Shown here piece after piece: positions 1,909 to 49,756 of a stretch of 54,305 nt of DNA (positions are counted from its first letter, which is position 1; every line of letters begins with the position of its first letter). The notes beneath the pieces are model-generated. The model saw nothing but the letters and a program-made list of their open reading frames with translations, did not search any database and was not told the origin of the DNA. The translations under genes and the position numbers were made by a program. This stretch comes from Chitinophagaceae bacterium (GTDB taxonomy: Bacteria; Bacteroidota; Bacteroidia; Chitinophagales; UBA10324), in assembly GCA_947474435.1 (NCBI GenBank), contig CANJII010000023.1, positions 1-54,305 of the forward strand. Reading direction: 5' to 3'.

Positions 1909-4900
1909 ATGAAAAAAATAATACTCGGCATAGTCACGCTTCTTCTGGCGAACTTTGCCCACGCCCAAAACGGCTTAGAAAATATTATTGTTGAAAAATA
2001 CTATGTATCAAATGCAACCGATGGTACTTACAGTTCAGGTACATTGCCTGCAGGTTCAGCAACATTCAGAATATATGCTGATATGTCACCCGGTTATAAA
2101 TTTCAGGCAGCTTACGGTGTGCCAACGCATACTATGACTATCACATCAACCACTTCATTCTTTAACAATACTGATTATGGTTCAATTGCTCCGACATTTT
2201 CAAAAACCAATGCAGCAAAAAATTCTGTTATGCTCGATTCTTGGTTTTCAGTTGGTGCAGCTTGTGCTTCTAACTTTGGTATCCTCAAATCAGAAGATGA
2301 TGGTGTTGCTACTGTAGTGAACAATACACCCGCTGCTCCTGGTGGAAAAATTCTTCAGAATAACAATGCATCAGCAGGCATTCCATTGACCACTCAAGAT
2401 GGTTTGATTGCAGGTGTTCCTGAAGCAGTTACATTCGTTGGTCTTGGCACTCTAACTGACCAATTCGGTGATGGTTCTGTTTCTGGAAATTCATTCATTA
2501 CCTCTAATGGTTCTTGGGCTTCATTGAATGGTTCATTAGGTCCTGTGCCTGCAACTAACAAAGTGTTGATTGCACAAATTACTACTGACGGAGTTTTGCA
2601 TTTTGAATTAAATATTCAAATTGGAACACCTTCAGGCGGGGTACAAAATTATGTATCATCAAATCCAGTTGGAGCTGAAATCACAATTCCAAGTCTCACA
2701 CAAACTTTAAATGCTCCCAACCTGCCTCCTACCATCAGCATTACTGCACCAACAAATGGTGCATCTTACTTAGTTGGACAGACAGTTGGAATTACAGTAA
2801 ATACAGCTGACCCTGACGGAACAGTTGACTCAGTACAATATTATGTTGATGGAGTTAAAAAAGGTTCTAAAGTAGGCGCTCCTTATACAAATACATTTAA
2901 CTGGACTGCAACAATAGGTGCTCATACTTTAACAGCAAAAGCTACCGATAACGGTGGAACAGTAGTTACATCAGCAGGAATAAGCATTACAGTTGGTAAT
3001 GTGATTGCTCCAACAGTAAGTATTACCTCACCTGTAAATGGTGCATCCTTTGTAGCGCCGGCTGGTGTGAATATTACAGCTAATGCGGCTGATGCTGATG
3101 GTACAGTATCTCAAGTTGAATTTTTTGTAGATAATGTTTCAGTTGGTATTGATAATACACTACCTACCTTTAGTTTCAACTGGACCAGTGCCGCTCCATT
3201 CGGTAACCGCCAGTTAAAAGCTGTGGCGACAGATAACAGTGGCGCTTCAACCACTTCAAGTATAGTTACAATAAATATTGCTGATCCAAATGCACTTGCT
3301 TATAAAGTAGTAAATGCAACCAATACCTGTGAGCCTGGTATATTCTGTATGTCTATAGCAGCTGAAGATGCTGTAGCCAATGTAATCGGATATGATTTAG
3401 TAATGCACTACGATTCTTCAAAAGTGGTACCTACAGGAGTGGTGACAGTTTCAAGTGACCTTGTTAGCTCTAATTTAGTTGATGTTGTAAACAGTATTGA
3501 TGCAGTGAACCAAAATGTAAATATTTCATTATTTTTCAACGGTAATGCTCCTGCTAATACCTTTTTCACTGGTACAGGAAATATTTGCTGCATAGAGTTC
3601 AGCAAAACATCAAATTTTGATGCTGTTGATACAGCAGCTTTCAACATTGTTTCTTTGCAGGAAAGTTATATTACTGGTGTGCAGTTGGTTGCGGCTGATG
3701 CAGGTAAGTACAATACTTTCAAAGACACTGCATTTGTAGGTTTACTTACTTATTGGAATCAAAATGGTCCTATTAAATACAATTCGGCTATTCCGAGTCA
3801 ATTTTTGATTACAAATATTTATGGCAACAATGCAAATTGCAATAGCGAATCAGTAACAGCAACTCAACCTGATTTAAACGGTCAATTTACCTTTAACACT
3901 AGCAATGGTGACTATATTACAATAAAGAGAGATATTGCTCCTACAACAAGTATACAGCCTGTTGTAAATGGTTTTGATGCTTACTTGACAAAAAGAGTAT
4001 TGATTAATGATGCTACTTTCACTCCTTCCATTTTCCAATTAATTGCAATGGATGCGAATCTTGATGGTGTAATCAGTGCTGGTGATGTATCTCAAATTAA
4101 TCAAAGAACAGTTTTGATAAACCCTGAAATGAAACAGGCATGGAATTATAGTTCAAATGGTACTCCACTTGGTCCAGTTTCTAAAGATTGGTTGTTTATT
4201 GACTTAACAACATTGAATAATGATGTGGACTACAGAGTTTCACTTACCTATCCTGCTGATGATGGAGTAGGGGCTTTTAAAAACAGAGTACCTGTTGTTC
4301 CTTTTTGTCTTCCGAGTCCAAATACTGCAGATACAACCGGTGGTTGTGTAGTTCTTAATGATGAAACTTATAAAGGTATTTTGATTGGAGATGTAAATGG
4401 TAATTACGCTGGTAATACTGGATTTTATTCACAGGGAAAAATAAGTGGAGATGACAAAGTAGTTTTTGATTTAACAAAATCAGTTACAGGTGAAGGTTAT
4501 GTTGATGTTCCGGTTTATGTTACATCACCAAGTGCAGTTAATTCTCTTGATTTTGCAGTTGCGTTCGATGAAACAAAACTTTCATTTAACTCAATTATTA
4601 ATACTGCCGAAAACATTGAGTCAATGGCAAATTTCAATTCAAATGACAAAACTTTAAGATTCACTTCATTCAGTTTGGATCAATTTGTAAAATGTTTACC
4701 AATTGCGACTGTTCGTTTTAACATTACCAGTCAACTAACTAAATCTGATTTTAATTCGTTGGAAGGTTATTTAAATGGCGATCGCGTTGGATTGGAAATA
4801 AATACAGATGAATCTGCTTCAGATTACAATGTAATTGTTTTCCCAAATCCTGCTAATGAACTATTAAATGTTGTTTCATCTGAAGATGCAACTATACAGT

Positions 4901-5136: not shown

Positions 5137-5886
5137 ATGAAAAAACAGATTGTACTTATTGTTACTATAATTTTTTCTTCGTTAATATCATTTGCCCAAT
5201 CGCCAAATGACATGAACATTATTGATGCGCAGGATACCGTTGTTTTTGATATTTCGCACGCAGATTCAGGAATCGGGTATATTGAATTTCCTGTTTATTT
5301 TTTATCGAATGATACAATAAATGCGTTGGATTTTTCTTTCAAATACAATCAGACCAATTTTTCGTATGATACCATTTTGAAGCTGGCAGGTTATTTATCT
5401 ATTACTTCTAATTACAACCTCGGTGATTCAACGGTATATTTCACATCTTTCAGTATTACAACTTTCACCAATAATACTCCAATGGTGAAAATCCGTTTCA
5501 ATGTTTCATCCGGGAAATTCTGCACCGATGATTTAAACAGTGTACTTGTTTATCTGAATGGCGATGCTTGTTCTGCTAAAATTACGGACTGTATTACAGA
5601 TACAGTCAATTCGATAGTTGCACCTGTTAATTATAATGAGTCGGTTGAACTTTTCCCTAATCCTTCAAATGGATTTTTTCAGATGAACTTTAATACTAAT
5701 AGTAGTGAGTCATATCATTTAATTGTTTCTGATGTAAATGGAAAAATAGTTTACAAGCAAAATGCAAATTCTTCAGTAGGTGAAAACGACATGAATCTGC
5801 ATCTGGATTTTCTTTCGAAAGGAGTTTACCTGTTGCAGGTAGTTTTTCCAACTATGAACCTGCACAAGAAAATAGTATTGCAATAA
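5137..5886 (+). CDS. T9SS-secreted single cohesin-like domain protein
   Basis: 249 residues. Signal peptide about 1-20 (ends SFAQ). Residues about 30-150 align over their whole length with the second cohesin-like module of the preceding gene: both share VVFD, GY(V/I), PVY, ALDF/SLDF, FTSFS, (V/I)RFN and VYLNGD/GYLNGD at matching spacing. A T9SS sorting domain follows at about 170-249 (LFPNPSNGFF, GVYLLQV, HKKIVLQ). It therefore looks like a one-module version of its neighbour, probably arising by duplication. The start codon lies 20 bp after the upstream terminator. Role unknown; a surface-anchored binding module is the simplest reading. Confidence 0.85.
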   Translation: MKKQIVLIVTIIFSSLISFAQSPNDMNIIDAQDTVVFDISHADSGIGYIEFPVYFLSNDTINALDFSFKYNQTNFSYDTILKLAGYLSITSNYNLGDSTVYFTSFSITTFTNNTPMVKIRFNVSSGKFCTDDLNSVLVYLNGDACSAKITDCITDTVNSIVAPVNYNESVELFPNPSNGFFQMNFNTNSSESYHLIVSDVNGKIVYKQNANSSVGENDMNLHLDFLSKGVYLLQVVFPTMNLHKKIVLQ

Positions 5887-5950
5887 ATTGAAATAGAAAA
5901 ATAGTTGTCTTTTAAAAAAGCGGTTTTATTTTTTGTAGTTTTATTTTATC

Positions 5951-5981
5951 AGAGGAGTGCTTCGGCACTCCTCTTTTTTTT
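5951..5981 (+). terminator. Rho-independent terminator with UUCG tetraloop
   Basis: A 10-bp perfect stem (5951-5960 with 5965-5974) is closed by the extra-stable C(TTCG)G loop and followed by eight T. It lies 65 bp after the cohesin-like gene. Confidence 0.93.
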
Positions 5982-6001
5982 GTCGAATACTATCTATATC
6001 A

Positions 6002-7465: not shown

Positions 7466-7505
7466 AAAATTGCTTTGTCGATTACTATTTCGGCAAAGCA
7501 ATTTT
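7466..7505 (+). terminator. Probable terminator of the GATase-like gene
   Basis: A 12-bp stem (7466-7477 with 7494-7505) encloses a 16-base loop, and the 3' arm ends in TTTT. It lies just upstream of the transporter start, which argues against extending that gene to its upstream in-frame TTG at 7470. Confidence 0.55.
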
Positions 7506-7526
7506 CATTTATCAATATTTGTTGCC

Positions 7527-8402
7527 ATGACAAAAAAATTATCACCGTATCATCTCTTCATTTATATAGTTCTTGTACTGATTTGGGGAAGCAGTTTTAT
7601 TCTGATGAAAAAAGGCTTAATCGTTTTTTCATCTGCACAAGTTGCAGCAATCAGGTTAACAACTGCATGCCTGGTTTTACTTCCTTTTTTATTGCTTCGG
7701 TTAAAAGAAGTAGAAAAGAAAAAAGTAATTTACATGATATTGATGGGATTAACCGGAAGCGGAATTCCTGCATTTCTTTTTACTGAAGCAGAAACACAGG
7801 TAAGCAGTTCGCTTGCCGGAATTTTAAATGCATTAACTCCATTGTTCGTTTTATTTATTGGAATGATTTTTTTCAAAATGAAATCAAACGCACTGAAAAT
7901 AACCGGGATATTAGTTGGGTTTGGCGGTTCGGTTATGCTTATACTTTTTAATAACGAAGGAGGTACTGAATCAAATATTTATTATGCAACATTGATAATT
8001 ATTGCAACTGCTTTATACGGCCTCAGCAATAACATTATTATAAAACACCTGCAAGGTTGTAATCCCATTTTAATGACAGCTACTGCTATGGCATTCATGG
8101 GTCCTTTTGCATTTAGCTGGTTAATGACTACTGATTTCACTCAGCGATTACACACTGAAGGGGCAATGTATTCATTGAGCAGTTGCATGATACTTGGTGC
8201 TTTCGGAACTTCAATTGCACTGGTTATGTACAATTATTTAATTCAAACAACTGGCGCGTTATTCGGAAGTACTGTAACTTATTTTATGCCCTTGGTGGCA
8301 CTCGGTTGGGGAGTTGCTGATGGCGAAGCAATCGGACTGATTGATTTTTTTGCGCTGGCAATTATTTTATTCGGCGTTTACTTGGTGCGCCGTGGGAAAT
8401 AA
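7527..8402 (+). CDS. EamA/DMT-family transporter
   Basis: 291 residues with about ten hydrophobic helices. The first helix carries the family phrase LIWGSSFILMKKG, and the two halves are related, as in the EamA duplication. Members of this family export amino acids, their analogues or other small metabolites across the inner membrane; the substrate cannot be read here. The ATG at 7527 is preferred because the in-frame TTG 57 bp upstream lies inside a terminator-like stem and adds a non-conserved leader. The gene ends 2 bp before the convergent RidA gene. Confidence 0.88.
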   Translation: MTKKLSPYHLFIYIVLVLIWGSSFILMKKGLIVFSSAQVAAIRLTTACLVLLPFLLLRLKEVEKKKVIYMILMGLTGSGIPAFLFTEAETQVSSSLAGILNALTPLFVLFIGMIFFKMKSNALKITGILVGFGGSVMLILFNNEGGTESNIYYATLIIIATALYGLSNNIIIKHLQGCNPILMTATAMAFMGPFAFSWLMTTDFTQRLHTEGAMYSLSSCMILGAFGTSIALVMYNYLIQTTGALFGSTVTYFMPLVALGWGVADGEAIGLIDFFALAIILFGVYLVRRGK

Positions 8403-30426: not shown

Positions 30427-32354
30427 TTATTCTTTAATAAATTTTTCTACCTCTCCTGTTTTTATATTTCTGATAAACAATATTCCATTGCTTCTTTCAG
30501 GCAGATGAATAAAAAATCCATTTGAAGATTGACTAAAAGTTGCCTGAAGATTTCTTCCGAGGAGATCTGTAACAATTAAATCCGCTGCATTTTCTGCTCC
30601 GGTTATTTCGCAAGTGTTACATGGATTTGGTGTCACCGCCATTTTAGAAACCAAATCATTTTCTACATCTTCTATTCTAAGCAAAGTCGCAAATGTGGCA
30701 ATGGTTGTAAATCCTGAATTAACCGAACCAGAAGAATTGCAATCTGTTCTCATCCGGTATTCGTAAACAGAATTAGCAGTGAGTCCGGTTAAAATTTTTG
30801 TTGTTGTTGGGGCAAGAATAGTTTTTGTCGTCCACGAATTGGTTCCTTGTTTTCGGTATCGTAATCGATATTGATAAGCACAAGAGTTACCGGTCCAGTT
30901 GACTGTTACACTTGTTTGAGAAATATTACCTGTTGCAATATTTGTTGGTTTGGAACAAGTGCAAATTGTTGTAAAAGTTTGAATAGCCGAATAGGAAGAA
31001 AGAGAAGTGCCTGCTGAATTACAATCAGTTCTTATCTGGTACTCGTAAGTACTGTTAGCTGTTAAACCGGTTAGTGTTTTAAAAACTGTTGGTGCAGTGA
31101 GATGGTTTCAGTCCAGGTGGTAGTTCCTTGCTTTCGGTATTGAATTCTGTATTGATATGCACACGAATTTCCTATCCAGTTTATTGTGGCTGATGTTCCG
31201 CTTATAACTGTTGAAGAAATATTTGTTGGTGCTGCACAAATTGAAACTGTAGTGTTAACGGGAGCTGATGATGCATAACAAGCCGGAGCGTTGCTGACTG
31301 TTACACTATAAGTCCCTGCTGTTAAAACCAGAATACTTTGTGTGGTTGCACCCGTATTCCATAAATAAGAAGTCGATGCACTTGAAGTCAATGTAACAGA
31401 ATTTCCCGGGCAAAAAGTCGTGGGTCCGTTTGCTGAAATTACCGGAGTGGTGATATTGCACCCTGAAAGATTTAAATTTTCATGAATCAGAAAATACTTA
31501 AACAATACTGATGCAAGTGAATCGGCAAATACTTTTCGGTTTGCATAACTGCTGCGAACATTTGAATTGCATTCTATCTGCACACCATTCACCGGATTGC
31601 CTGCTGCATGACAGGTGTAATTTGCTGTATTAAATCCGCCATCAAAATATGGGTTTGTACCCGGTGACGGAGTTTGCAAACTTGGTACAGCAGGGAATCC
31701 TGCATTGGCTAACAAAGTTCCTAAAGCAAAATTGCCACGAAGCATATTCGTGTTATTGTACCCATTAACATTTGAAGCCACTAAATTCTTAATTGAACTA
31801 AGGTTAGTGTAATAGGAAGTATTTAAAACACTATCACTATATCCAAGTTGAGTGGATGTATATAAATATCCCAATTCCAACTGCTGAATAGTATGACCAT
31901 GACCATGCAGGTCAATATAAAATGCTTTTCCGGGAAATTGATTTTGAACAATTGATTCCGCTGTATCAATAAAGTGATGAAACTCATTCCATGCTTGTGT
32001 TGCTTCTGCATTTCCGCATGCGCCTTCTACTATTTCTCTGTTGCAATCAATTTTTGTTCGCTTGAGATTACAATAAATAATATGTGGATGCTTGCCTGTA
32101 AGATTGAATAAACTTGAATCAATCTGTTTTGCCAATGAAATGGTATATGCATCAGTAACCAATGTAGGATTGTTGCAGGTGCGATCAGGAATGGATGAAG
32201 GAGTTAAACTTCCACCATGCGGAACTGAAATAATAATGGGTAATGTTCCTTTATGATATTCGATATAACTATTTGCACCATAAATAACCTGAGAATGACT
32301 TTTAAAACAACCGGAAAGAATTAAAATTAAGCAGAAAATTTTTTTCAATTTCAT
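30427..32354 (-). pseudogene. Frameshifted T9SS N-formylglutamate-amidohydrolase-like protein
   Basis: Two minus-strand frames join to one protein. The first (32354-31071) has a signal peptide (ends SHSQ), then an amidohydrolase domain with SVPHGG (His46), NLKRTKIDCNREI, YIDLHGHGH (His150/152/154) and VQIECN. An Ig/SprB-like domain (ISANGPTTFCPGNSVTL) and one fibronectin-III-like unit follow. The frame breaks near 31101-31106. One base appears to be missing there: restoring it gives TETILTAPT, which parallels TKTILAPT in the next repeat. The second frame continues through the next fibronectin-III unit to a T9SS sorting domain (VTPNPCNTCEIT, KFIKE) ending at 30427. The mature enzyme would be a secreted zinc-type amidohydrolase. 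It may be a real pseudogene or a sequence error. Confidence 0.85.
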
Positions 32355-41418: not shown

Positions 41419-41620
41419 GTATTAAAATTTGTTTTTAAAAATTCAGATTGAAAACAGTACTAATCTTTATTAATTACTATTTCAAGTTTAGAAAATTTTT
41501 CAGCGCAACAACAATGTTTTGTATTAACGGAAAAAATAAGAATGAGGCTTATTACGAACAAACCGAAACTTTTGTTTTGTATTTAAAGAGGCAGAATATT
41601 TTCTGCTCGCAAAACCGAAT

Positions 41621-41628
41621 TATTTTCG
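41621..41628 (+). promoter_or_regulatory. -7-like element for cysS
   Basis: TATTTTCG ends 8 bp before the chosen cysS ATG at 41637, the same octamer and near-same spacing as at recR. Its position inside the apparent 189-bp N-terminal extension of the frame supports the downstream start. Confidence 0.5.
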
Positions 41629-41636
41629 CAACCGAT

Positions 41637-43133
41637 ATGAGTCAACTTACCATCACCAATAGCTTCACAAGAGCGAAAGAAATTTTTGACCCGTTACACG
41701 CGCCTCATGTGGGCATGTATGTGTGCGGCCCCACTGTGAGCGGCGAAACACACTTGGGTCACGCGCGACCTTACATCACTTTCGATGTGGTGTTTCGTTA
41801 CCTGAAATATCTCGGATACAAGGTGCGCTATGTGCGCAACATTACCGATGCCGGTCACTTTGAAGAAGAAGGTCGCGAGGCAGAAGATAAAGTAGCCAAC
41901 AAAGCGAAGCTCGAAATGCTGGAGCCAATGGAGCTCGTTACTAAGTACACCAACATTTATCACGACATGATGGCGCTACTCAATACCGAGCGACCATCCA
42001 TTGAGCCAACTGCAACCGGACACATTGTGGAGCAGATTGAAATGATAAAAGATTTAATGGCGAAAGGTTTTGCCTATGAAGCAAACGGCTCGGTTTATTT
42101 TGATGTGCTGAAGTATGCGAAGACAAATGATTACGGAAAACTGAGCGGACGAATTCTGGATGATATGATTGCCGGTTCGCGCGAACTGGAAAATCAGGAG
42201 GAGAAAAGAAATGCCGCCGACTTTGCGCTCTGGAAAAAAGCAGCACCCGAACACATCATGCAATGGAATTCGCCGTGGGGAATGGGTTTTCCCGGATGGC
42301 ACATTGAGTGCTCGGCAATGGCAACGAAGTATCTCGGAACCACCTTCGATATTCATGGCGGCGGAATGGATTTACAATTTCCGCATCACGAAAGTGAAAT
42401 TGCGCAATCGAGTATTTCGAACGGAAAACCGCCTGTGAAGTACTGGATGCACAATAACATGATTACCGTAATGGGTAAAAAAATGGGGAAGAGTTATGGC
42501 AACACCATTACCCTGAACGAAATGTTTACTGGTGCACACGCTTTGCTCGAACAACCCTATTCTCCAATGACGGTTCGCTTTTTCATTTTGCAAACACATT
42601 ACCGCAGCACACTTGATTTCACCAACATGGGATTGCAGGCAGCGGAAAAAGGTTTGCAAAGATTGATGAATGCAAATGCGATTTTGAAAGCGATGAATTA
42701 TGATGTTGTTGGTCAGGCGACCAACAACGGCGGTAGCGCGGAAGATGAAGCAGTAAAAAAATTAATTGCCGACCTGCACGACCAGATGAATGATGATTTG
42801 AACACGGCAATGGTGATGGCAACGCTGTTTGAACTGAGCGGAAAAATAAATGCGTGGAAGAATGGGCAGCAGCAAATGAGTGTTACACCTGAAACTTTCC
42901 AATTGCTGAAAAAAACTTTTTATGATTTCACCGAAGTGATTCTTGGTTTGAAGGATGAAACCGCCGCCGACAATTCGAACATGGATGATGTGATGCAGTT
43001 GGTTATCTCTCTTCGCAAGCAAGCGCGTGAGAAAAAAGATTTTGCCACCTCCGATATTATTCGTGATGAATTATTGAAAGCAGGCATTCAACTGAAGGAT
43101 AGCAAGGATGGAACGAGTTGGGGGAAGAGTTAG
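41637..43133 (+). CDS. cysS: Cysteine--tRNA ligase
   Basis: 498 residues from the ATG at 41637. Charges tRNA-Cys. Class I signatures: HLGHAR (HIGH box, from residue 39) and KMGKS (282-286). The four zinc ligands are Cys30, Cys225, His250 and Glu254, in family spacing. The open frame extends 189 bp further upstream, but those 63 residues are not family-like and include a promoter-like element. The C-terminal [21 protein letters not shown] is the normal end. GC content is higher than its neighbours. Confidence 0.96.
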
Positions 43134-43157
43134 GATGATTCGTAATACATTAGATGT

Positions 43158-43916
43158 ATGAGCAGCGCGACAATCCGGAAATATTTTTCAGCAGCGATAT
43201 TATTTTCTGTGCTTGCATTTTTCAATTCGTGTTCGGTGCATTATTTCTCGCCTCAGCGCATTGATGTTTATGGGTTCGATACTTCGAAACAAACAAAAGG
43301 AGTAATTGAACCTTACTTCAATATGCTGAATCTGCATCTTGCGATTGCGCATAGTTTTTCAAAACATATTTATTTCGGAGTTGGAGCACAAGGTGATATG
43401 AAATGGTTGCCTAAGAATTATCAACCAGATACAGCAAGCAATTATTCATCCGGCTCTGTAAATGCATTGGCGGGCTATTTTAAAAAAACAAAGAGTGGTA
43501 ATCTGATTGATATATCAGGCGGATGGGGGTATGAAAAAATGTATTTTGAGAGATCAAAATCATCTGATGGCTGGGGTTATTATGGATACTCTAAAACTTA
43601 CCGAGCACAATACCAAATTCCACATATTCAATTCAGTTATTGCTTTAAAGGAAAATCAAGTGATACTTATTTCACTTTAAGAACTTCCGGAATTTTCAGA
43701 GCTGAAGAAAAGGAAGTTTTTACTGCTACTGAAGCAATTTTATATCGTGTTTATATACCTTATGCCTTGTTGTTCTCTCCTTGCATTCAATTCAATTTCA
43801 GGAATGCAAAAGCAGTTCCTTTTTTCATTACGGCAAACATCAGCACTAAAAAAGGTGAAGGCTCTGTCTTATTTGCGCCTCCCTTTCAAGCAGGAATAAA
43901 ATTTATGATTCATTAA
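43158..43916 (+). CDS. Outer-membrane-type lipoprotein of unknown function
   Basis: 252 residues. Lipoprotein signal: basic start, hydrophobic stretch AAILFSVLAFF, and NSC with Cys25 as the lipid site. The remainder is rich in aromatic and alternating strands (VGAQGDMKWLP, IQFSYCFKG, PCIQFNFRN), like a beta-barrel or beta-sandwich. I do not recognise the family. It follows cysS by 24 bp and precedes another lipoprotein by 9 bp, so these two may be co-expressed. Confidence 0.7.
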   Translation: MSSATIRKYFSAAILFSVLAFFNSCSVHYFSPQRIDVYGFDTSKQTKGVIEPYFNMLNLHLAIAHSFSKHIYFGVGAQGDMKWLPKNYQPDTASNYSSGSVNALAGYFKKTKSGNLIDISGGWGYEKMYFERSKSSDGWGYYGYSKTYRAQYQIPHIQFSYCFKGKSSDTYFTLRTSGIFRAEEKEVFTATEAILYRVYIPYALLFSPCIQFNFRNAKAVPFFITANISTKKGEGSVLFAPPFQAGIKFMIH

Positions 43917-43925
43917 ACAGCATTC

Positions 43926-44594
43926 ATGATAAAAAAAATATCCCTTCTGTTGTTTTCTTTTTGTTTCATTTTTCTTTCGTGCAGAAAGGAATTGGGACGC
44001 GGACCTATCGCCTACATTCCTCAGGAGGTGAAAACATTTTTCAATTATAAACCAGGCAGCTATTGGGTTTATCAGGATAGTATTTCAGGAGATTATGATT
44101 CAGTGGAATGTCAGGAAGTAATTGTTGATACACTTATGTTTACTTATCACGATTGGAAGAATGATGGTAAGTTGAAAGTTGAGTCTTACGAGCTTATGCA
44201 ATTAAACAATATTATTTATCATCCTGATAATTCCTATACTCCCTATAATGGAATAAATATTTCATCGAAATCTGATAGGGCAGTTGATGGTGTTTTTCAA
44301 ATTAAAAGAGAAGATTTTTATGGCCAAAGTTGGTATCTCATTTATCCATTTACTGTTGGAAATCACTTTATTAACGATCAGGCTGATACAGTTGTAATTT
44401 CTGCATTACTCGATCATTACTCAATCAATTCAATGACCTTTGATAGTGTATTGGTTTCTGATGTTCTCTTGAAGCATAATAATTCAGAAAGAAATATGCG
44501 GTACTATTCTGTAAAAGGTATTGGTATTATTCAGATTAAAAGCAGGTATGATACAACCAATTACAAACTGGTGAGTTATCATATTGAATATTAG
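43926..44594 (+). CDS. Lipoprotein of unknown function
   Basis: 222 residues. Lipoprotein signal ISLLLFSFCFIFLSC with Cys20 as the lipid site. The mature part begins with RKELGRGPIAYIPQEVKTFFNYKPGSYWVYQDS, a pattern seen in Bacteroidota lipoproteins of unknown role ('PGSYWVY'). It holds mostly beta strands and a short C-terminal strand SRYDTTNYKLVSY. It lies 9 bp after the preceding lipoprotein gene. Confidence 0.7.
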   Translation: MIKKISLLLFSFCFIFLSCRKELGRGPIAYIPQEVKTFFNYKPGSYWVYQDSISGDYDSVECQEVIVDTLMFTYHDWKNDGKLKVESYELMQLNNIIYHPDNSYTPYNGINISSKSDRAVDGVFQIKREDFYGQSWYLIYPFTVGNHFINDQADTVVISALLDHYSINSMTFDSVLVSDVLLKHNNSERNMRYYSVKGIGIIQIKSRYDTTNYKLVSYHIEY

Positions 44595-44622
44595 TTCTGT
44601 TTAAAATTCAATTTCAGAATTC

Positions 44623-44796
44623 ATGCGCACCATCACCTTCAAATCTTCTTCTGATAAAAAAATGAATCTGCTTATTCGACTGGCGCATGAAATGGGTGTT
44701 GAGATTGTTGTTCCTGATTTGGATGAAGAAGATTTAAGCTGGCTGTTAAAAGACCGGAAGAAAAAACCGGCGAAGAAGGAAAAGAAGAGCAATTAA
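44623..44796 (+). CDS. Small antitoxin-like protein
   Basis: A 57-residue ORF, too short for most gene callers. It reads MRTITFKSSSDKK, then LLIRLAHEMGVEIVV, an acidic DLDEEDL turn and a strongly basic tail. This 'strand plus K/D-rich link plus amphipathic helix' layout resembles small antitoxins of Bacteroidota type II systems, but no toxin follows on the same strand. The minus-strand open frame over the same bases is a shadow. It ends 3 bp before the convergent phosphatase stop. Confidence 0.5.
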   Translation: MRTITFKSSSDKKMNLLIRLAHEMGVEIVVPDLDEEDLSWLLKDRKKKPAKKEKKSN

Positions 44797-44799
44797 ATA

Positions 44800-46248
44800 T
44801 TAATGCTCTATCCTGATTCCCATCACCAGTATATCATCAATCTGATCAATGGTGCCTTTATAGGTTGTATGAAAACTGAGGAGGTTGGTATGTTGATCGG
44901 CTAATGATTTTCCGCGCTGCTCCATTAATAATTCTTTAAACTTTTTCCGTGTCAGTTTTTTTTCGTGCCCGCCGCCGAACTGATCGGCATATCCATCACT
45001 GAAGAGATAAAGTATATCGCCCTTTTTTATTTCTATTTTGTGATTGTGGTAAGTGTAACGGTTTTCCACCTCGCCTATCGGTTGTTTGTCTGGTTTAAAT
45101 TCGAGCAGTTCGTAAAAAGCAGTTTCGCGTGCAATCCACAGCGGAAGATTGGCACCCGCCCAATACAATTCGCGTGTGTTTTTATTGAAGGCGCAAACAC
45201 TCGCATCCATTCCGTCCTTCACTTCGTGATTCATGCCCAGACTTTCCAACATCAGTTCCGCCACTTTATCCAGAATTTCCGAAGGACGAATAATACCATA
45301 CTCCTTCACCGCACGATTCAATGCATTATTACAAACAATGCTGATCAACGCGCCGGGAACTCCATGCCCTGTGCAATCGCACACCGCAAAAAACATCCAC
45401 TCATTCACCGTTTCCGCCCAGTAAAAATCGCCCGACACAATATCTTTCGGAAGAAACAGAATAAAACTTTCGCCCAGCTTCTGTTCAATCAATGCGTGCG
45501 ATGGAAGCAGTGCAGTCTGAATCCGTTTTGCATAATTAATGGAATCGAGCAGTTCATTTTTCTCTTCTAATATTTCATCTTTCTCGCGGCGCAAATCGAG
45601 CGTGCGTGTTTCCACCTGCGACGACAGGTACTGTTGTTGCACAATGCTGAACAGTTCTTTAAATTTTATCTGCAAGCCACTCGACGAAATATTTACCGGC
45701 GAACCGCTGCGGCGATTTTCCAACCACATCCACACGCGGTTAAACAAATTGCCCTCGCGCAAAATAAATTTTTGCGGATGATGAACTTTCACCTGCACGC
45801 AATCAGAAAAAATAATTTTACTCGTATTTATTTCTTCCACTTCCGACCAAAGAATAGTGCCCGACGGAACAATGCCAGAGTTATCAATGATTCCATCGCG
45901 GTTAATGACCAACCCAAAACCTTTATCGAACCACCGCTTGATGGCAAAGCCGGCAACGGTTCCGAACACCACCAAGAAAGCAATATCAAAAACCGAATTG
46001 AAAAGAAGTTGAAACGAAATGCCCGATTCGTCAATCACATTCTGATAAATACTGCGCATTGATTCATACGAAATAAAACTTGACAGCAGCAGAATGAACA
46101 TCAACATCCGCTTGCGCGCTTTTATTATTATTTCTTTTGGTGGAGTTGTTTGCTTAATCACTTTGGGGAGTTGTGACAAATGTAATAATGTGAGAAATCT
46201 TCTTTTAGAGTAATGTTTTCTTTTCTGGTGTTTCTCTTTTGTAATCAC
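44800..46248 (-). CDS. SpoIIE-family (PP2C-type) serine phosphatase with membrane/PH-like N-terminus
   Basis: 482 residues. Two helices near 50-65 and 85-105 are followed by a PH-like segment (GLVINRDGIIDNSGIVPSGT, ILWSEVEEI) like the STM3941 family, then a coiled coil (RREKDEILEEKNELLDSI). The C-terminal SpoIIE domain has FLPKDIVSGDFYW, CDCTGHGVPGALIS, KDGMDASVCAF and LFSDGYADQFGG, all with metal-binding Asp. It would dephosphorylate a partner (often an anti-sigma-antagonist) in response to a membrane signal. No partner is adjacent. The start may be at the ATG near the first helix. Confidence 0.9.
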   Translation of the reverse strand: MITKEKHQKRKHYSKRRFLTLLHLSQLPKVIKQTTPPKEIIIKARKRMLMFILLLSSFISYESMRSIYQNVIDESGISFQLLFNSVFDIAFLVVFGTVAGFAIKRWFDKGFGLVINRDGIIDNSGIVPSGTILWSEVEEINTSKIIFSDCVQVKVHHPQKFILREGNLFNRVWMWLENRRSGSPVNISSSGLQIKFKELFSIVQQQYLSSQVETRTLDLRREKDEILEEKNELLDSINYAKRIQTALLPSHALIEQKLGESFILFLPKDIVSGDFYWAETVNEWMFFAVCDCTGHGVPGALISIVCNNALNRAVKEYGIIRPSEILDKVAELMLESLGMNHEVKDGMDASVCAFNKNTRELYWAGANLPLWIARETAFYELLEFKPDKQPIGEVENRYTYHNHKIEIKKGDILYLFSDGYADQFGGGHEKKLTRKKFKELLMEQRGKSLADQHTNLLSFHTTYKGTIDQIDDILVMGIRIEH

Positions 46249-46361
46249 GATTTATGAATGGTGAGATATAATCGGAACAGATATGACTCTATTCTTTTAG
46301 CAATTTGAACAGGAAGACTTTGCGGAGTCGAAAAGAAGTTAAAGAATCAGATGAACAAAAT

Positions 46362-46369
46362 TAGTTTTG
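46362..46369 (+). promoter_or_regulatory. Exact Bacteroidota -7 element
   Basis: TAGTTTTG matches TAnnTTTG exactly, 17 bp before the ATG of the secreted protein at 46387. I see no clear -33 TTG. Confidence 0.5.
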
Positions 46370-46386
46370 CTATATCATAACTCTGT

Positions 46387-47160
46387 ATGTTTAAACGATA
46401 CCTTATCATTTACTTTTTATACACTGGTATTGCACATGGTCAATCGAAAACCGAGCTGAGTATTGCTGCAGGAATTTCTGTTTCTCAATTGCATTGGTTA
46501 GAAAATGATTACTATAACACTTGTCTCGGATGCGGGTTTTATCATTTAGATCATTTTAAAAGTCATTATCCTGTTGGCGCTTCAATTTCCTTTCAGCAAG
46601 CATTAATGCCAGAGAGAAGAATCTCATTTCTTTTTTCTGAAAAGATTAATTATAACACAGCTGGATATGATTTTATTTCAAGATATATTGATAGAGTTAC
46701 TTCAACAGGTGCTGGTTCTGTGCTTGTTTCAAAGAGTTGGTTTTATGACGGAACTATTAATTACAATGTGATTTCTTTTAGTCCTGCAACAGGAGTAAGA
46801 TTAAACTTTCTTCATCACCGCTTTAATTTTCATACTCTTCTTCAACCGGAAATAAGACTCGTGAATTTAAGCACAAGTGATTACATCAATGAATACATAA
46901 AATCGGAAACACAGGATTCAGCCAGGAAAATATGGGCCGTAACTCAAGATGTGATTATACAAGTTCATGAGAAAACTGTAATGAGTTTAGTAAGTTTGAA
47001 TTTAGTAGGAGGTATTGGTTATCATTTTCACACTAAAAAAGAACAGGAAATAACCATTGAGCTAAATGCTTTGAAGGGAATTTCAAGACTTTCTGGAAAT
47101 ACTGATGATCTTCTTATTTACAGATCGGCAATTGAATTAATGATTGGAATTGTTCTTTAG
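46387..47160 (+). CDS. Secreted outer-membrane beta-barrel-like protein
   Basis: 257 residues. Signal peptide about 1-19 (ends AHGQ). The mature part alternates hydrophobic and polar residues in short strands: SIAAGISVSQLHWL, GASISFQQALMP, ISFSPATGVRLNF, SLNLVGGIGYHF, and ends with a strand and ELMIGIVL, as in outer-membrane barrels. An HPLGxC-like pair CLGCGF near residue 47 is notable. No sequence family is recognised; no T9SS domain. The kbl-tail relic begins 12 bp after its stop. Confidence 0.65.
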   Translation: MFKRYLIIYFLYTGIAHGQSKTELSIAAGISVSQLHWLENDYYNTCLGCGFYHLDHFKSHYPVGASISFQQALMPERRISFLFSEKINYNTAGYDFISRYIDRVTSTGAGSVLVSKSWFYDGTINYNVISFSPATGVRLNFLHHRFNFHTLLQPEIRLVNLSTSDYINEYIKSETQDSARKIWAVTQDVIIQVHEKTVMSLVSLNLVGGIGYHFHTKKEQEITIELNALKGISRLSGNTDDLLIYRSAIELMIGIVL

Positions 47161-47172
47161 CTTTAATCATTA

Positions 47173-47255
47173 CACCCCCACCTTCTCCTTAATCACTCCC
47201 AACTCTTTCCAGATTTTTGCAAAAGCAGCAATGGCTTTATCGAGGTGGTGCTGTT
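47173..47255 (-). repeat. Relic copy of the 3' end of kbl
   Basis: 76 of 83 bases match the true kbl end at 47992-48074 in the same orientation, with no gaps. In frame it encodes [17 protein letters not shown] and a stop, against [17 protein letters not shown] in kbl. Weaker similarity continues to about 47282. Upstream the frame is broken, so this is a 27-codon relic. Confidence 0.9.
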
Positions 47256-47301
47256 GTGTGCGGCGCTAATTTACATGAATGAAATTGTAAATGAATGGAA
47301 A

Positions 47302-47763
47302 CTACTCCGGTTCTTTAAAGAGATATTTCTCGTCGTACTCCACTTCAAACTTTTCCAGAAACTCCTTGTACTCTTCCGCAAAAGTTTTCTTCCGGTGATG
47401 CTCTTCTTGCTTCAGAATATAATTAACCACTGCATCCACCTGCGACTTCGCATACGAAAAAGCACCATACCCTTCCTGCCAGTTAAATTTTGTGCGGGTC
47501 AATTTCTCCTTGTTAATCCATTCCGACGATTCGCCTTTCACCTTCTTCATCAAATCTGAAATGGATTGGTGCGGCCGCATTCCAAAAAATAAATGCACAT
47601 GGTCGGGCATACTGTTTATCGCAATCATCTTATGGCCTTCACCTTGAACAATGCCGGTTATGTATTTATGCAATCGCTCCTGAAATTCTTTGCCAATCAT
47701 TGCTTCCCTGAACTTTACCACGAAAACACATTGAATATGAATTTGCGTATAGGTGTTCGACAT
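47302..47763 (-). CDS. REP-associated / IS200-type HUH tyrosine transposase
   Basis: 153 residues, the usual length. The first residues MSNTYTQIHIQCVF belong to the Bacteroidota branch of the Y1 transposases. The HUH motif is PDHVHLFFG (His55, His57), and the catalytic Tyr is probably Tyr115 in AVVNYILKQEEHH, with Gln119 four residues on. WINKEKLTRTKFNWQEGYGAFSY is a typical middle block. It cuts and joins single-stranded DNA at palindromes; the REP-like palindromes directly upstream of it fit a RAYT (REP-associated) type. No TnpB partner is present. The gene looks intact. Confidence 0.9.
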   Translation of the reverse strand: MSNTYTQIHIQCVFVVKFREAMIGKEFQERLHKYITGIVQGEGHKMIAINSMPDHVHLFFGMRPHQSISDLMKKVKGESSEWINKEKLTRTKFNWQEGYGAFSYAKSQVDAVVNYILKQEEHHRKKTFAEEYKEFLEKFEVEYDEKYLFKEPE

Positions 47764-47799
47764 TTTATTCGATTATTTTTTTGATGCGCGCAAATTGCA

Positions 47800-47975
47800 T
47801 TGTCCCGATGGGACAAAATGCATCTGAATTATTTTTTCTACCAACGCTTTGTCCCTATGGGACAACATCAATGCATTATCCAATCAGAGTATCTTCTTAT
47901 TGACAGACATGTCCCGTAGGGACAAAGTGTTGGTAACACAGACACTATGCAAAATTCTTTGCCCCAAAGGGGCAA
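47800..47975. repeat. Four REP-like palindromes (GTCCCnnnGGGAC type)
   Basis: The copies are at 47800-47816 (TTGTCCC-GAT-GGGACAA), 47849-47865 (loop TAT), 47910-47924 (loop GTA) and 47959-47975 (TTGCCCC-AAA-GGGGCAA). The second is preceded by TACCAACGC and the third is followed by AGTGTTGGTAA, its inverse, so these two form a larger inverted pair. The fourth is also followed by TTGGTAA. This layout matches the BIME-like REP pairs that RAYT transposases act on. Confidence 0.85.
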
Positions 47976-47988
47976 TGCATTGGTAACC

Positions 47989-49188
47989 TCACACCCCCAC
48001 CTTTTCCTTAATCACTCCCAACTCTTTTCCAATTTTAGTAAAAGCAGCAATTGCTTTATCGAGGTGGTGCTGTTCGTGCGCGGCACTTATCTGCACACGA
48101 ATGCGCGCATTGCCCTTCGCCACCACGGGAAAGAAAAACCCGATGGCATAAATGCCTTCGGGCAGCAGACGCTCAGAAAACTTTTGCGCAAGCACGGCAT
48201 CGTACAACATGATGGGCACAATGGGATGTTCGCCGGGCTTAATATCGAAACCCGCGGCAGTTATCTTGCTGCGGAAGTAAGCCGTATTATTTTCGAGCTT
48301 GTCGCGCAGCGCGGTGGTTTGGCTCAGCATATCGAGCACGGCAATGGAAGCGCCTGTTATACTTGGAGCAAGTGCATTCGAAAATAAATATGGCCGCGAC
48401 CGCTGACGAAGCAATTCAATAATTTCTTTTTTACCCGAAGTGAAACCGCCCGATGCGCCGCCAAGCGCCTTGCCATAAGTGCCCGTAATAATATCAATGC
48501 GCCCCATCACGCCACGGTGTTCGTGCGTGCCGCGCCCGGTTTTTCCCATGAAGCCGCTCGCGTGGCATTCATCAATCATCACCATCGCATTGTATTTGTC
48601 GGCGAGGTCGCAGATTTTATCTAACTGTGCAATGGTGCCATCCATACTGAACACGCCATCGGTAATAATTATTCTGCTTCGTGCGCCGGATGATTCTTTC
48701 AGTTTCTCTTCCAGGTCGTTCATTTCGTTGTGCTTGTAGCGAAGGCGCTGCGATTTGGTGAGGCGCACACCATCAATAATACTTGCGTGATTCAGCTCAT
48801 CACTTATCAATGCATCTTCTTCATTGAACAAAGGTTCGAACACACCGCCATTGGCATCGAATGCGGCGGCATATAAAATGGTGTCTTCTGTACCCAAAAA
48901 CTCCGAAGTTTTTTGCTCCAGTGTTTTATGTGAATCCTGTGTTCCGCAAATGAACCGCACACTGCTCATGCCGTATCCATGTGTGTCAATCGCCTCCTTG
49001 GCCGCCGCAATAACTTTCGGATGCGAACTCAATCCGAGATAATTGTTCGCACAGAAATTTAAAACGGTTTTTCCGCCAACAGTAATCTCTGCTCCCTGAG
49101 GAGAAGTGATGATGCGCTCGTTCTTAAACAAGCCGTTGGCTTTTATTTCCTCCAGTTCTTTCTGCAGTCTGCTTTGAATCGAGTACAT
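47989..49188 (-). CDS. kbl: Glycine C-acetyltransferase (2-amino-3-ketobutyrate CoA ligase)
   Basis: 399 residues. PLP enzyme of threonine catabolism that turns 2-amino-3-ketobutyrate and CoA into glycine and acetyl-CoA. Signatures: [44 protein letters not shown] and [14 protein letters not shown] with the PLP Lys240. It ends [16 protein letters not shown] followed by the shared 3' end. The partner gene tdh is not in the window. The leftward gene end borders the REP palindromes and has a second, relic copy 819 bp away. TATCTTCA lies in the leader, 21 bp before the start. Confidence 0.96.
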
Positions 49189-49301
49189 AGACAGTTGGGT
49201 TTTGTGCGGTGAAGATAATTCGAAACTGTTCGAAGAAAAATCGGATTACTTTTCTCGCAGAAAAAACAGTCTGAAAGTTAAATTTGCTTAAAAGAAAAAT
49301 C

Positions 49302-49496
49302 ATGAAAGGAATTTCATTCATCACTGATGAAAAAAATAAAAAGACAGCCATCGTTATTGACTTGAAAACAATGGAATCAAAAAATGAAGAAGTGCATGAA
49401 TACCTCGATGTGTTGATTGCTGAATCAAGAAAAAATGAACCAACTATAAATTGGGAAACTGCAAAAAAACAATTGAAGAAGTCGGGTAAACTATGA
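49302..49496 (+). CDS. Antitoxin of a type II toxin-antitoxin pair
   Basis: 64 residues from the ATG at 49302; an in-frame TTG 18 bp upstream is rejected. The N-terminal strand GISFITDEKNKKTAIVIDL (a Phd/DUF2281-like or YefM-like strand pair) is followed by an acidic helix region and the basic tail WETAKKQLKKSGKL. Its stop overlaps the next ATG by 4 bp, a layout typical of toxin-antitoxin pairs, in which the antitoxin binds the toxin and represses the operon. Confidence 0.8.
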   Translation: MKGISFITDEKNKKTAIVIDLKTMESKNEEVHEYLDVLIAESRKNEPTINWETAKKQLKKSGKL

Positions 49497-49756
49497 GTTT
49501 CCAGATTGTTATTGCAAGAAAAGCATTGAAGGAATTATCATCTCTTCCGAAAAATTCGGTTCGGAAAATTTCTGCATCCATTGAAAAACTTTCTTACAAC
49601 CCAAGACCGGTCGGATGTAAAAAATTAAAAGGAGAAGAAGAAATACTCTGGAGAATCCGTTCGGGTGATTACCGCATTATCTATTCTGTTGATGATACTG
49701 TGCGGATTGTTGAGGTGAGAAGAATCGGACATCGGAAAAATATTTATGATTTATAA
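49493..49756 (+). CDS. RelE/ParE-family toxin
   Basis: 87 residues. MSFQIVIARKALKELSSLPKNSVRKI at the start, then PRPVGCKKLKG, LWRIRSGDYRIIYSVDD and VEVRRIGHRKNIY: this is the RelE/ParE fold order, with the basic Arg/His cluster at the end typical of ribosome-dependent mRNA endonucleases. It overlaps the antitoxin stop by 4 bp. The system is probably plasmid-like or chromosomal stress-related; activity cannot be assumed. Confidence 0.92.
   Translation: MSFQIVIARKALKELSSLPKNSVRKISASIEKLSYNPRPVGCKKLKGEEEILWRIRSGDYRIIYSVDDTVRIVEVRRIGHRKNIYDL

Follow-up and report, generated by a model that had tools for sequence, protein, structure and literature searches.

The 3′ end of kbl lies on both sides of a Y1 transposase

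The window, i.e. the whole stretch of 54,305 nucleotides that was analysed, carries an intact kbl gene, a group of palindromes, a transposase gene and a second copy of the kbl end (the relic). The features of this region and its surroundings are as follows.

41448–43133, plus strand: ORF (cysS) that we take to be cysteinyl-tRNA synthetase-like, start codon unsure; its 3′ end lies next to that of kbl in the congener G003
43158–43916 and 43926–44594, plus strand: two ORFs of the variable cysS–kbl stretch, missing between cysS and kbl in G003
44800–46248, minus strand: SpoIIE-type phosphatase (profile match), in the same variable stretch
46387–47160, plus strand: ORF adjoining the relic, with a 62% relative in one of five congeners searched (G004, on another contig)
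47169–47281, minus strand: relic of the kbl 3′ end, from 20 bp past the transposase stop to the kbl stop codon (repeat and congener matches)
47302–47763, minus strand: Y1 (HUH) transposase, 153 aa, with the Y---Q--HH signature of subclass 1.2 (PF01797, E 3e-29)
47800–47816, no strand: palindrome TTGTCCC-NNN-GGGACAA (pattern search, as for the next three)
47849–47865, no strand: palindrome TTGTCCC-NNN-GGGACAA
47909–47925, no strand: palindrome with one mismatch to the pattern
47959–47975, no strand: palindrome TTGCCCC-NNN-GGGGCAA
47989–49188, minus strand: kbl, glycine C-acetyltransferase, intact, 399 aa (ORF; NCBIfam TIGR01822, 677 bits against a cut-off of 493)
47991–48103, minus strand: kbl 3′ end that has a second copy (113 columns with gaps; repeat and alignment)
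48250–48309, minus strand: divergent tract within kbl (57–73% identity to four congeners)

Directly upstream of kbl, at 49284–49756, a small ORF (no Pfam match) is followed by a ParE-type toxin gene (PF05016); the two are likely to be a toxin–antitoxin pair.

The top and longest repeat family listed for 45.5–50.5 kb was a direct repeat of 84 nt (47172–47255 and 47991–48074), 92% identical, on the same strand and with a spacing of 819. A repeat of this length and identity rules out chance similarity of the two kbl ends. When gaps were allowed, the kbl end and the relic aligned over 113 columns at 86.7% identity (E 3e-33), and the kbl ends of four congeners placed the bounds of the relic at about 47168 and 47281. 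The same-orientation duplication described in the original prediction is thus confirmed. The relic had also been described as still in frame: it keeps an in-frame peptide of 17 letters, but two small gaps lie further upstream, which indicates that it is decaying. Between the kbl 3′ end and its copy (47172–47281) are 709 bp that hold the four palindromes and the transposase.

Properties of the transposase and its palindromes

The unit between the copies had been named a RAYT gene with REP palindromes. A Y1 transposase and four palindromes are indeed present, but the RAYT name does not fit well, as the protein scored 31.5 bits with the curated NCBIfam REP-associated model NF047646 (cut-off 80). 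It passed the curated IS200/IS605 model NF033573 (81.4 bits, cut-off 55). Its motifs DHVH, WQ and Y---Q--HH match the signature given for subclass 1.2 of the Y1 enzymes (DH[IV]H, WQ, Y---Q--HH; PMC6006769), and by its sequence the enzyme fits this subclass. With regard to the C-terminal domain that is specific to this subclass, the C-terminal stretch was conserved in five of six aligned proteins, in a comparison among these six alone.

The copy number in the window genome is low. We observed two Y1 matches at E ≤ 0.001, the second of which is only 34% identical and sits on contig C83 with a different flanking repeat; a third, weak Y1 match is on contig C60. The palindrome pattern, allowing one mismatch, was found nowhere in the 3.5 Mb genome except at the four kbl-locus sites, so no spreading is visible; together with the 34% identity of the second Y1 gene, this led us to reject a mobile unit dispersed in the genome. 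Two traits of RAYTs were looked for in vain: two inverted REPs flanking the gene (palindromes lie upstream only, with none within 120 nt past the stop) and, for the searched pattern with up to one mismatch, abundant genome-wide REPs.

Several ORFs and a Y1 transposase of a second kind are preceded by a repeat of about 110 bp (L002 926–1473 and 2134–2245 on C83; L139). Eight further similar places were found in the window genome, and by eye this repeat also lies near a Y1 gene of G005. This series is possibly a cassette-like array.

Insert-free sites in related genomes

An empty site at kbl, which the original prediction had asked for, was found in G003, where the kbl and cysS ends are 23 bp apart; hence the stretch 43134–47988 of the window is extra. 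Directly behind kbl, each of the five genomes compared has different DNA (G005, G004 and G001 are each distinct). Likewise, the DNA polymerase gene of one of the survey cases described below has an insert-free counterpart in G058, where it lies about 37 bp from a flank that in G070 follows only after transposase, relic and two additional ORFs. In both testable cases (kbl and dnaE), the relic is followed by further genes that are missing at the empty site, and not by the ancestral flank. No other window matches were found within 3.3 kb around the G004 relative of the ORF at 46387.

Gene-end integration by an integrase was considered and rejected, as none was noticed among the ORFs listed from 43 kb to kbl. 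A solitary cysS end of ~150 bp was noticed in G004 (L033 12180–12335), next to two palindromes and a SpoIIE-type gene; that contig stretch lacks the full cysS, and the end may be a relic.

Survey of related transposase loci

We surveyed 203 distinct transposase genes, including that of the window, drawn from three samples: the best 80 of at least 464 transposase loci, 120 stretches taken down a ranked match list (matches near contig ends were mostly left out), and loci of the window genus. As genes we took simple ORFs with a minimum length of 80 or 100 aa. A translated search (leaving out 40 loci) and gene-end DNA searches (leaving out L036, L037, L040 and L041, which the translated search covered) were used. 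The minimum match was 45 nt in the first gene-end screen and in the control screen described below, and 35 nt in the second gene-end screen. Ends with more than two matches were dropped in the first and with more than three in the second gene-end screen; the control screen dropped none and printed at most three per gene. Flanking DNA of 1.5 kb was available on each side at only 171 of the 203 loci, so that the screens may have overlooked some relics.

A clean gene-end copy across the transposase was observed at four of the 203 loci: kbl in the window and the following three.

L076: pyruvate carboxylase (pyc), 2338–2433 copied at 4472–4567, 96.9% identity
L223: DNA polymerase III alpha (dnaE), 4588–4657 copied at 5566–5635, 92.9% identity
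L190: RNA 2′-phosphotransferase (kptA), 4744–4826 copied at 5908–5990, 88% identity

All four share the order intact gene, transposase unit, and then a relic of 70–113 bp of the gene end. The transposase is oriented with the gene in three cases and opposite to it in L190; in the three same-strand cases, the relic starts 20, 6 and 64 bp past the transposase stop. The kptA gene is carried by two of 18 genomes of its genus, the other copy at 61%, and no close relative with kptA for an empty-site comparison was found among these 18. The looser form of the subclass 1.2 motifs ([DE]H.H, WQ, Y...Q..HH) was present at 187 of the 203 loci.

The remaining 199 loci, among them the Y1 gene on C83, yielded no gene-end copy in these screens; the C60 match lay outside the screen. 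The expectation that other copies of the transposase also sit between duplicated gene ends was therefore borne out at four loci, with unrelated genes, and most copies lack such duplications, which the original prediction had named as evidence against itself.

At L294, fragments that are presumably Rhs-like lie on both sides of the transposase (4749–4814 and 7920–7985, 97% identity; the fragments lie at 2097–2499, 4749–4814 and 7472–8062). This locus may be a fifth case; we did not count it, since its repeats do not reach the gene stop.

Other repeats were screened out. By eye, the direct repeats at L059, L061, L064, L074, L077, L078, L079, L082, L087, L090, L092, L098, L103 and L135 were palindrome arrays rather than gene ends; L127 was a short match far from the transposase and L139 an unrelated 110-bp repeat. 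From the result table alone, L063, L226, L228, L247 and some others were put down as repeat arrays, and L090, L107, L184 and L225 as low-identity paralogues. L062 and L218 were palindrome arrays including a gene end, L264 a tandem pair of whole paralogues (81%), L295 and L298 palindromes, and L271 and L116 simple repeats; L216 and L269 had the look of protein repeats or of paralogues. Many further rows, such as window 30842–30906, were repeats internal to a single ORF. None of the matches at L177, L220 and L292 spans the transposase.

The same anatomy without a transposase

The control screen covered twenty 20-kb stretches of the window genome, the window and four congener loci (511,581 bp, 377 ORFs). 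It returned four rows: kbl, an internal repeat of one window ORF (30842–30906), an inverted short match in L318, and L313. The last one has the following features.

L313 5178–5879: response regulator
L313 4226–5227: ORF of the cargo, which we assume from its sequence to be FISUMP-like
L313 4109–4200: relic of the regulator end

Here, the relic starts 25 bp past the stop of the cargo gene. No Y1 transposase match was found on the L313 contig or on its counterpart contig in G001, and the loose hairpin rule (see below) gave a single hairpin in the insert. The congener G001 repeats the order of L313 with a decayed relic of its own (L323 435–2199), whereas G002 has other DNA behind the regulator. 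As this case lacks a transposase, the gene-end-relic anatomy does not need one. The rates are four in 203 transposase loci against one clear transposase-free place among 377 ORFs. Transposase neighbourhoods thus look enriched in gene-end copies, for which the fair control would be other inserted genes.

According to the original prediction, the element itself could make the copies. This proposal was not supported, because no copy was found at 199 loci and because the same anatomy surrounds a non-transposase gene in the window genome.

Hairpins beside the transposases

A GC-rich hairpin within 120 nt past the transposase stop (stem of 5) was observed at 161 of 200 loci, against 135 of 1193 control pieces; these thresholds had been loosened after a first look from a stem of 6 within 100 nt, and the stricter rule (stem of at least 6, 100 nt) gave a hairpin behind 90 of 200 transposases. 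Among 196 loci (L051–L130, L172–L251 and L262–L301), a GC palindrome lay within 120 nt behind the gene at 159 and within 150 nt before it at 147. In all four relic cases a perfect hairpin is missing from the 120 nt behind the transposase (hypergeometric 0.0013); by eye, imperfect palindromes occupy the expected position in L190.

The same-strand relics begin where the 3′ palindrome usually stands. This place could be the site of a DNA break, which keeps a role of the transposase possible. Palindrome arrays that are tandemly repeated together with the transposase 3′ end or the end of a neighbouring gene were seen at L221, L229, L237, L090, L235 and L062.

Descent of the two copies

The kbl relic is 87.5% identical to the kbl of its own genome, 89.4% to that of G001, 89.4% to G005, 88.5% to G004 and 74.3% to G003, the last figure being low because the G003 gene end is shortened. 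Such differences in identity are small, one or two bases in about 112. Judged by eye, three variable sites (AGC, ACA and ATT) join the relic to the congeners and none joins it to the window kbl alone.

The tract at 48250–48309, 260–320 bp before the kbl end, diverges from all four congeners, which among themselves are 87–100% identical there (four pairs). Of the 32 singletons found only in the window kbl, 17 fall within 120 bp, and none of 2000 shuffles reached that clustering; in the same test, 84 (G005), 1899 (G004) and 182 (G001) of 2000 shuffles did. The G003 kbl has a similar clustering at the gene end, which we put down to its early stop. By its sequence, the tract in the window kbl has a foreign look.

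Over six gene/relic pairs, we counted 23 synonymous and 21 other codon changes. These counts are compatible with copies that diverged as working alleles but not decisive, because every pair includes a functional gene. For kbl and dnaE, gene and relic cease to resemble each other within the stop codon, the outcome to be expected from the joining of two alleles that were followed by different DNA. Judged from these comparisons, the differences between the copies would fit two alleles united by recombination; single duplications made in place, pyc for example, are compatible as well.

Probable origin of the gene-end relics

We lean towards the kbl relic being a recombination scar, in which the resident gene end was displaced by either single-crossover or homology-facilitated illegitimate recombination, and consider this, with both routes taken jointly, moderately probable. 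DNA of a related strain, having a kbl 3′ end directly before the palindrome–transposase unit, would have entered the cell. A homologous junction inside the resident kbl would leave the gene intact, and at a non-homologous junction the DNA just past the transposase would be joined about 110 bp before the resident gene end. The resident end, together with its old downstream neighbour, would then be left behind as the relic. Either of two published routes might have led there: the single crossover of a fragment that had lost part of its length and closed into a circle again, a process that yields duplications, or homology-facilitated illegitimate recombination. The kbl locus has homology on one side and an abrupt non-homologous junction on the other, as a product of recombination should. 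No resident DNA is deleted at the illegitimate junction, as would be typical of the second route; the resident end is duplicated instead, which favours the single crossover. In favour of a scar are the like anatomy with other cargo at L313, the slightly closer match of the kbl relic to three congeners, the tract of foreign look in the window kbl, the similarity that ends in the stop codon of kbl and dnaE, the variable DNA behind kbl in the five genomes, the published duplications and displaced effector ends described below, and the fragments at L294. The anatomy, its recurrence, the insert-free sites, the transposase-free case and the divergent tract are observed; who the donor was, how the events followed each other and which route was taken are inferred, and no donor strain was found for the kbl scar. 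By itself, the start of the unit at the stop codon says little, because REPs are reported to lie within 20 bp of ORF 3′ ends in other bacteria (PMC3733652). The suggestion that gene ends are landing sites which restore the gene agrees with the intact kbl, but it describes an outcome and no mechanism.

Several points speak against a scar, among them the missing donor, the small identity differences of the kbl relic and the apparent enrichment beside transposases. Another is the pyc copy, identical over its last 81 bp, which is equally explained by a simple duplication in place. In such a duplication, the unit would have been inserted at a staggered break of 70–113 bp at the gene end, fill-in would have copied the end, and only insertions whose duplication reaches the stop would leave the gene intact and survive. 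The relics 6 to 64 bp past the transposase stop in the same-strand cases, the occurrence of both transposase orientations and the intact genes agree with it, as does dnaE, where by eye the relic carries the changes and the gene is like that of G058. However, the copies range in length from 70 to 113, in two of the four cases their boundary falls in the stop codon, the kbl relic is no clear sister of its own kbl, and the kptA pair differs by four synonymous and five other codons. We regard this explanation as unlikely. A further point against a scar is that the perfect 3′ hairpin common at the surveyed loci is missing from every relic case. It would be accounted for if the transposase cut at its 3′ palindrome and the free end became linked to the end of the orthologous gene in a new host, the explanation nearest to the original prediction, and the relic starts 6, 20 and 64 bp past the stop, together with the recurrence at four of 203 loci, point the same way. 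Against such a homology-guided insertion are the transposase-free L313 with its relic 25 bp past the cargo stop, the palindromes that have not spread in the genome, the 199 loci at which no relic was found, and the imperfect palindromes of L190; it seems to us quite improbable. We hold the broader proposal, that subclass 1.2 enzymes cut at their own 3′ palindrome and spread between orthologous gene ends of related bacteria with the attached host end as homologous guide and the 70–113 bp relic replacing the 3′ palindrome, to be highly doubtful. Finally, the gene end, palindromes and transposase might have been duplicated in tandem, with the second unit then lost and the second gene end kept. 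The six arrays named above do duplicate with adjacent gene ends, but by eye no second unit is left behind the relic in any of the four cases, the young case L076 included, and the loss would have to stop at the relic boundary every time, making this course very improbable.

If they are recombination scars, displaced gene ends would be readable marks of DNA import beside housekeeping genes; they would reveal the homologous side of the insert, and a census over many genomes may be feasible. From an isolated case beside a transposase one is easily led to the wrong mechanism, which the transposase-free case in the same genome illustrates. Should the missing 3′ palindrome prove general, the spread of these little-studied Y1 enzymes would become testable.

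Comparison with known systems

Among the titles and abstract openings searched, which mostly excluded subscription journals, none named gene-end copies flanking Y1 transposases. The window transposase shares the motifs DHVH, WQ and Y---Q--HH, a low copy number and occurrence in Bacteroidetes with the subclass 1.2 enzymes (Quentin 2018, PMC6006769). That source reports that typical terminal structures are generally absent from this subclass, whereas palindromes were common beside the gene in our survey. A single Y1 gene with a local palindrome array is shared with the RAYT/REPtron system (Nunvar 2010, PMC2817692), from which the window differs by its score below the curated cut-off and by palindromes that lie on one side and whose pattern is nowhere else in the genome. 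IS200/IS605 elements make no larger target site duplication, as stated in the same paper, and we do not read the ~110 bp duplication around the unit as one. According to PMC8266576, evidence that the RAYT gene itself is mobile is lacking. REPIN tandem clusters (Bertels and Rainey 2011, PMC3116915) likewise copy flanking DNA with palindromes, but those are tandem arrays and kbl has no second unit; they cover the array cases of the survey and not the kbl case.

In connection with homology-facilitated illegitimate recombination, the 3′ ends of T6SS/Rhs effectors are reported to be displaced downstream by new modules (PMC5361080). As proposed for kbl, a new gene with its cargo pushes the old 3′ end and the neighbour downstream; here, however, housekeeping genes are concerned, with no obvious selection and with a duplication in place of a deletion. 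The genes at L294 are of the kind for which such displaced ends were proposed in that paper. The recombination scar favoured here has its nearest likeness in the single crossover of re-circularised fragments at lacZ of Escherichia coli (PMC3240628), where 56 of 60 clones gave a PCR product of the lacZ-end duplication and the 14 that were sequenced measured 109 to 950 bp. According to this report, homology-facilitated illegitimate recombination usually deletes resident DNA rather than duplicating it. In both lacZ and kbl, an insert is flanked by a partial copy of the gene end, of 109 bp upwards in the experiment; the former arose with a laboratory plasmid, and the cases described here are natural, with relics of 70–113 bp.
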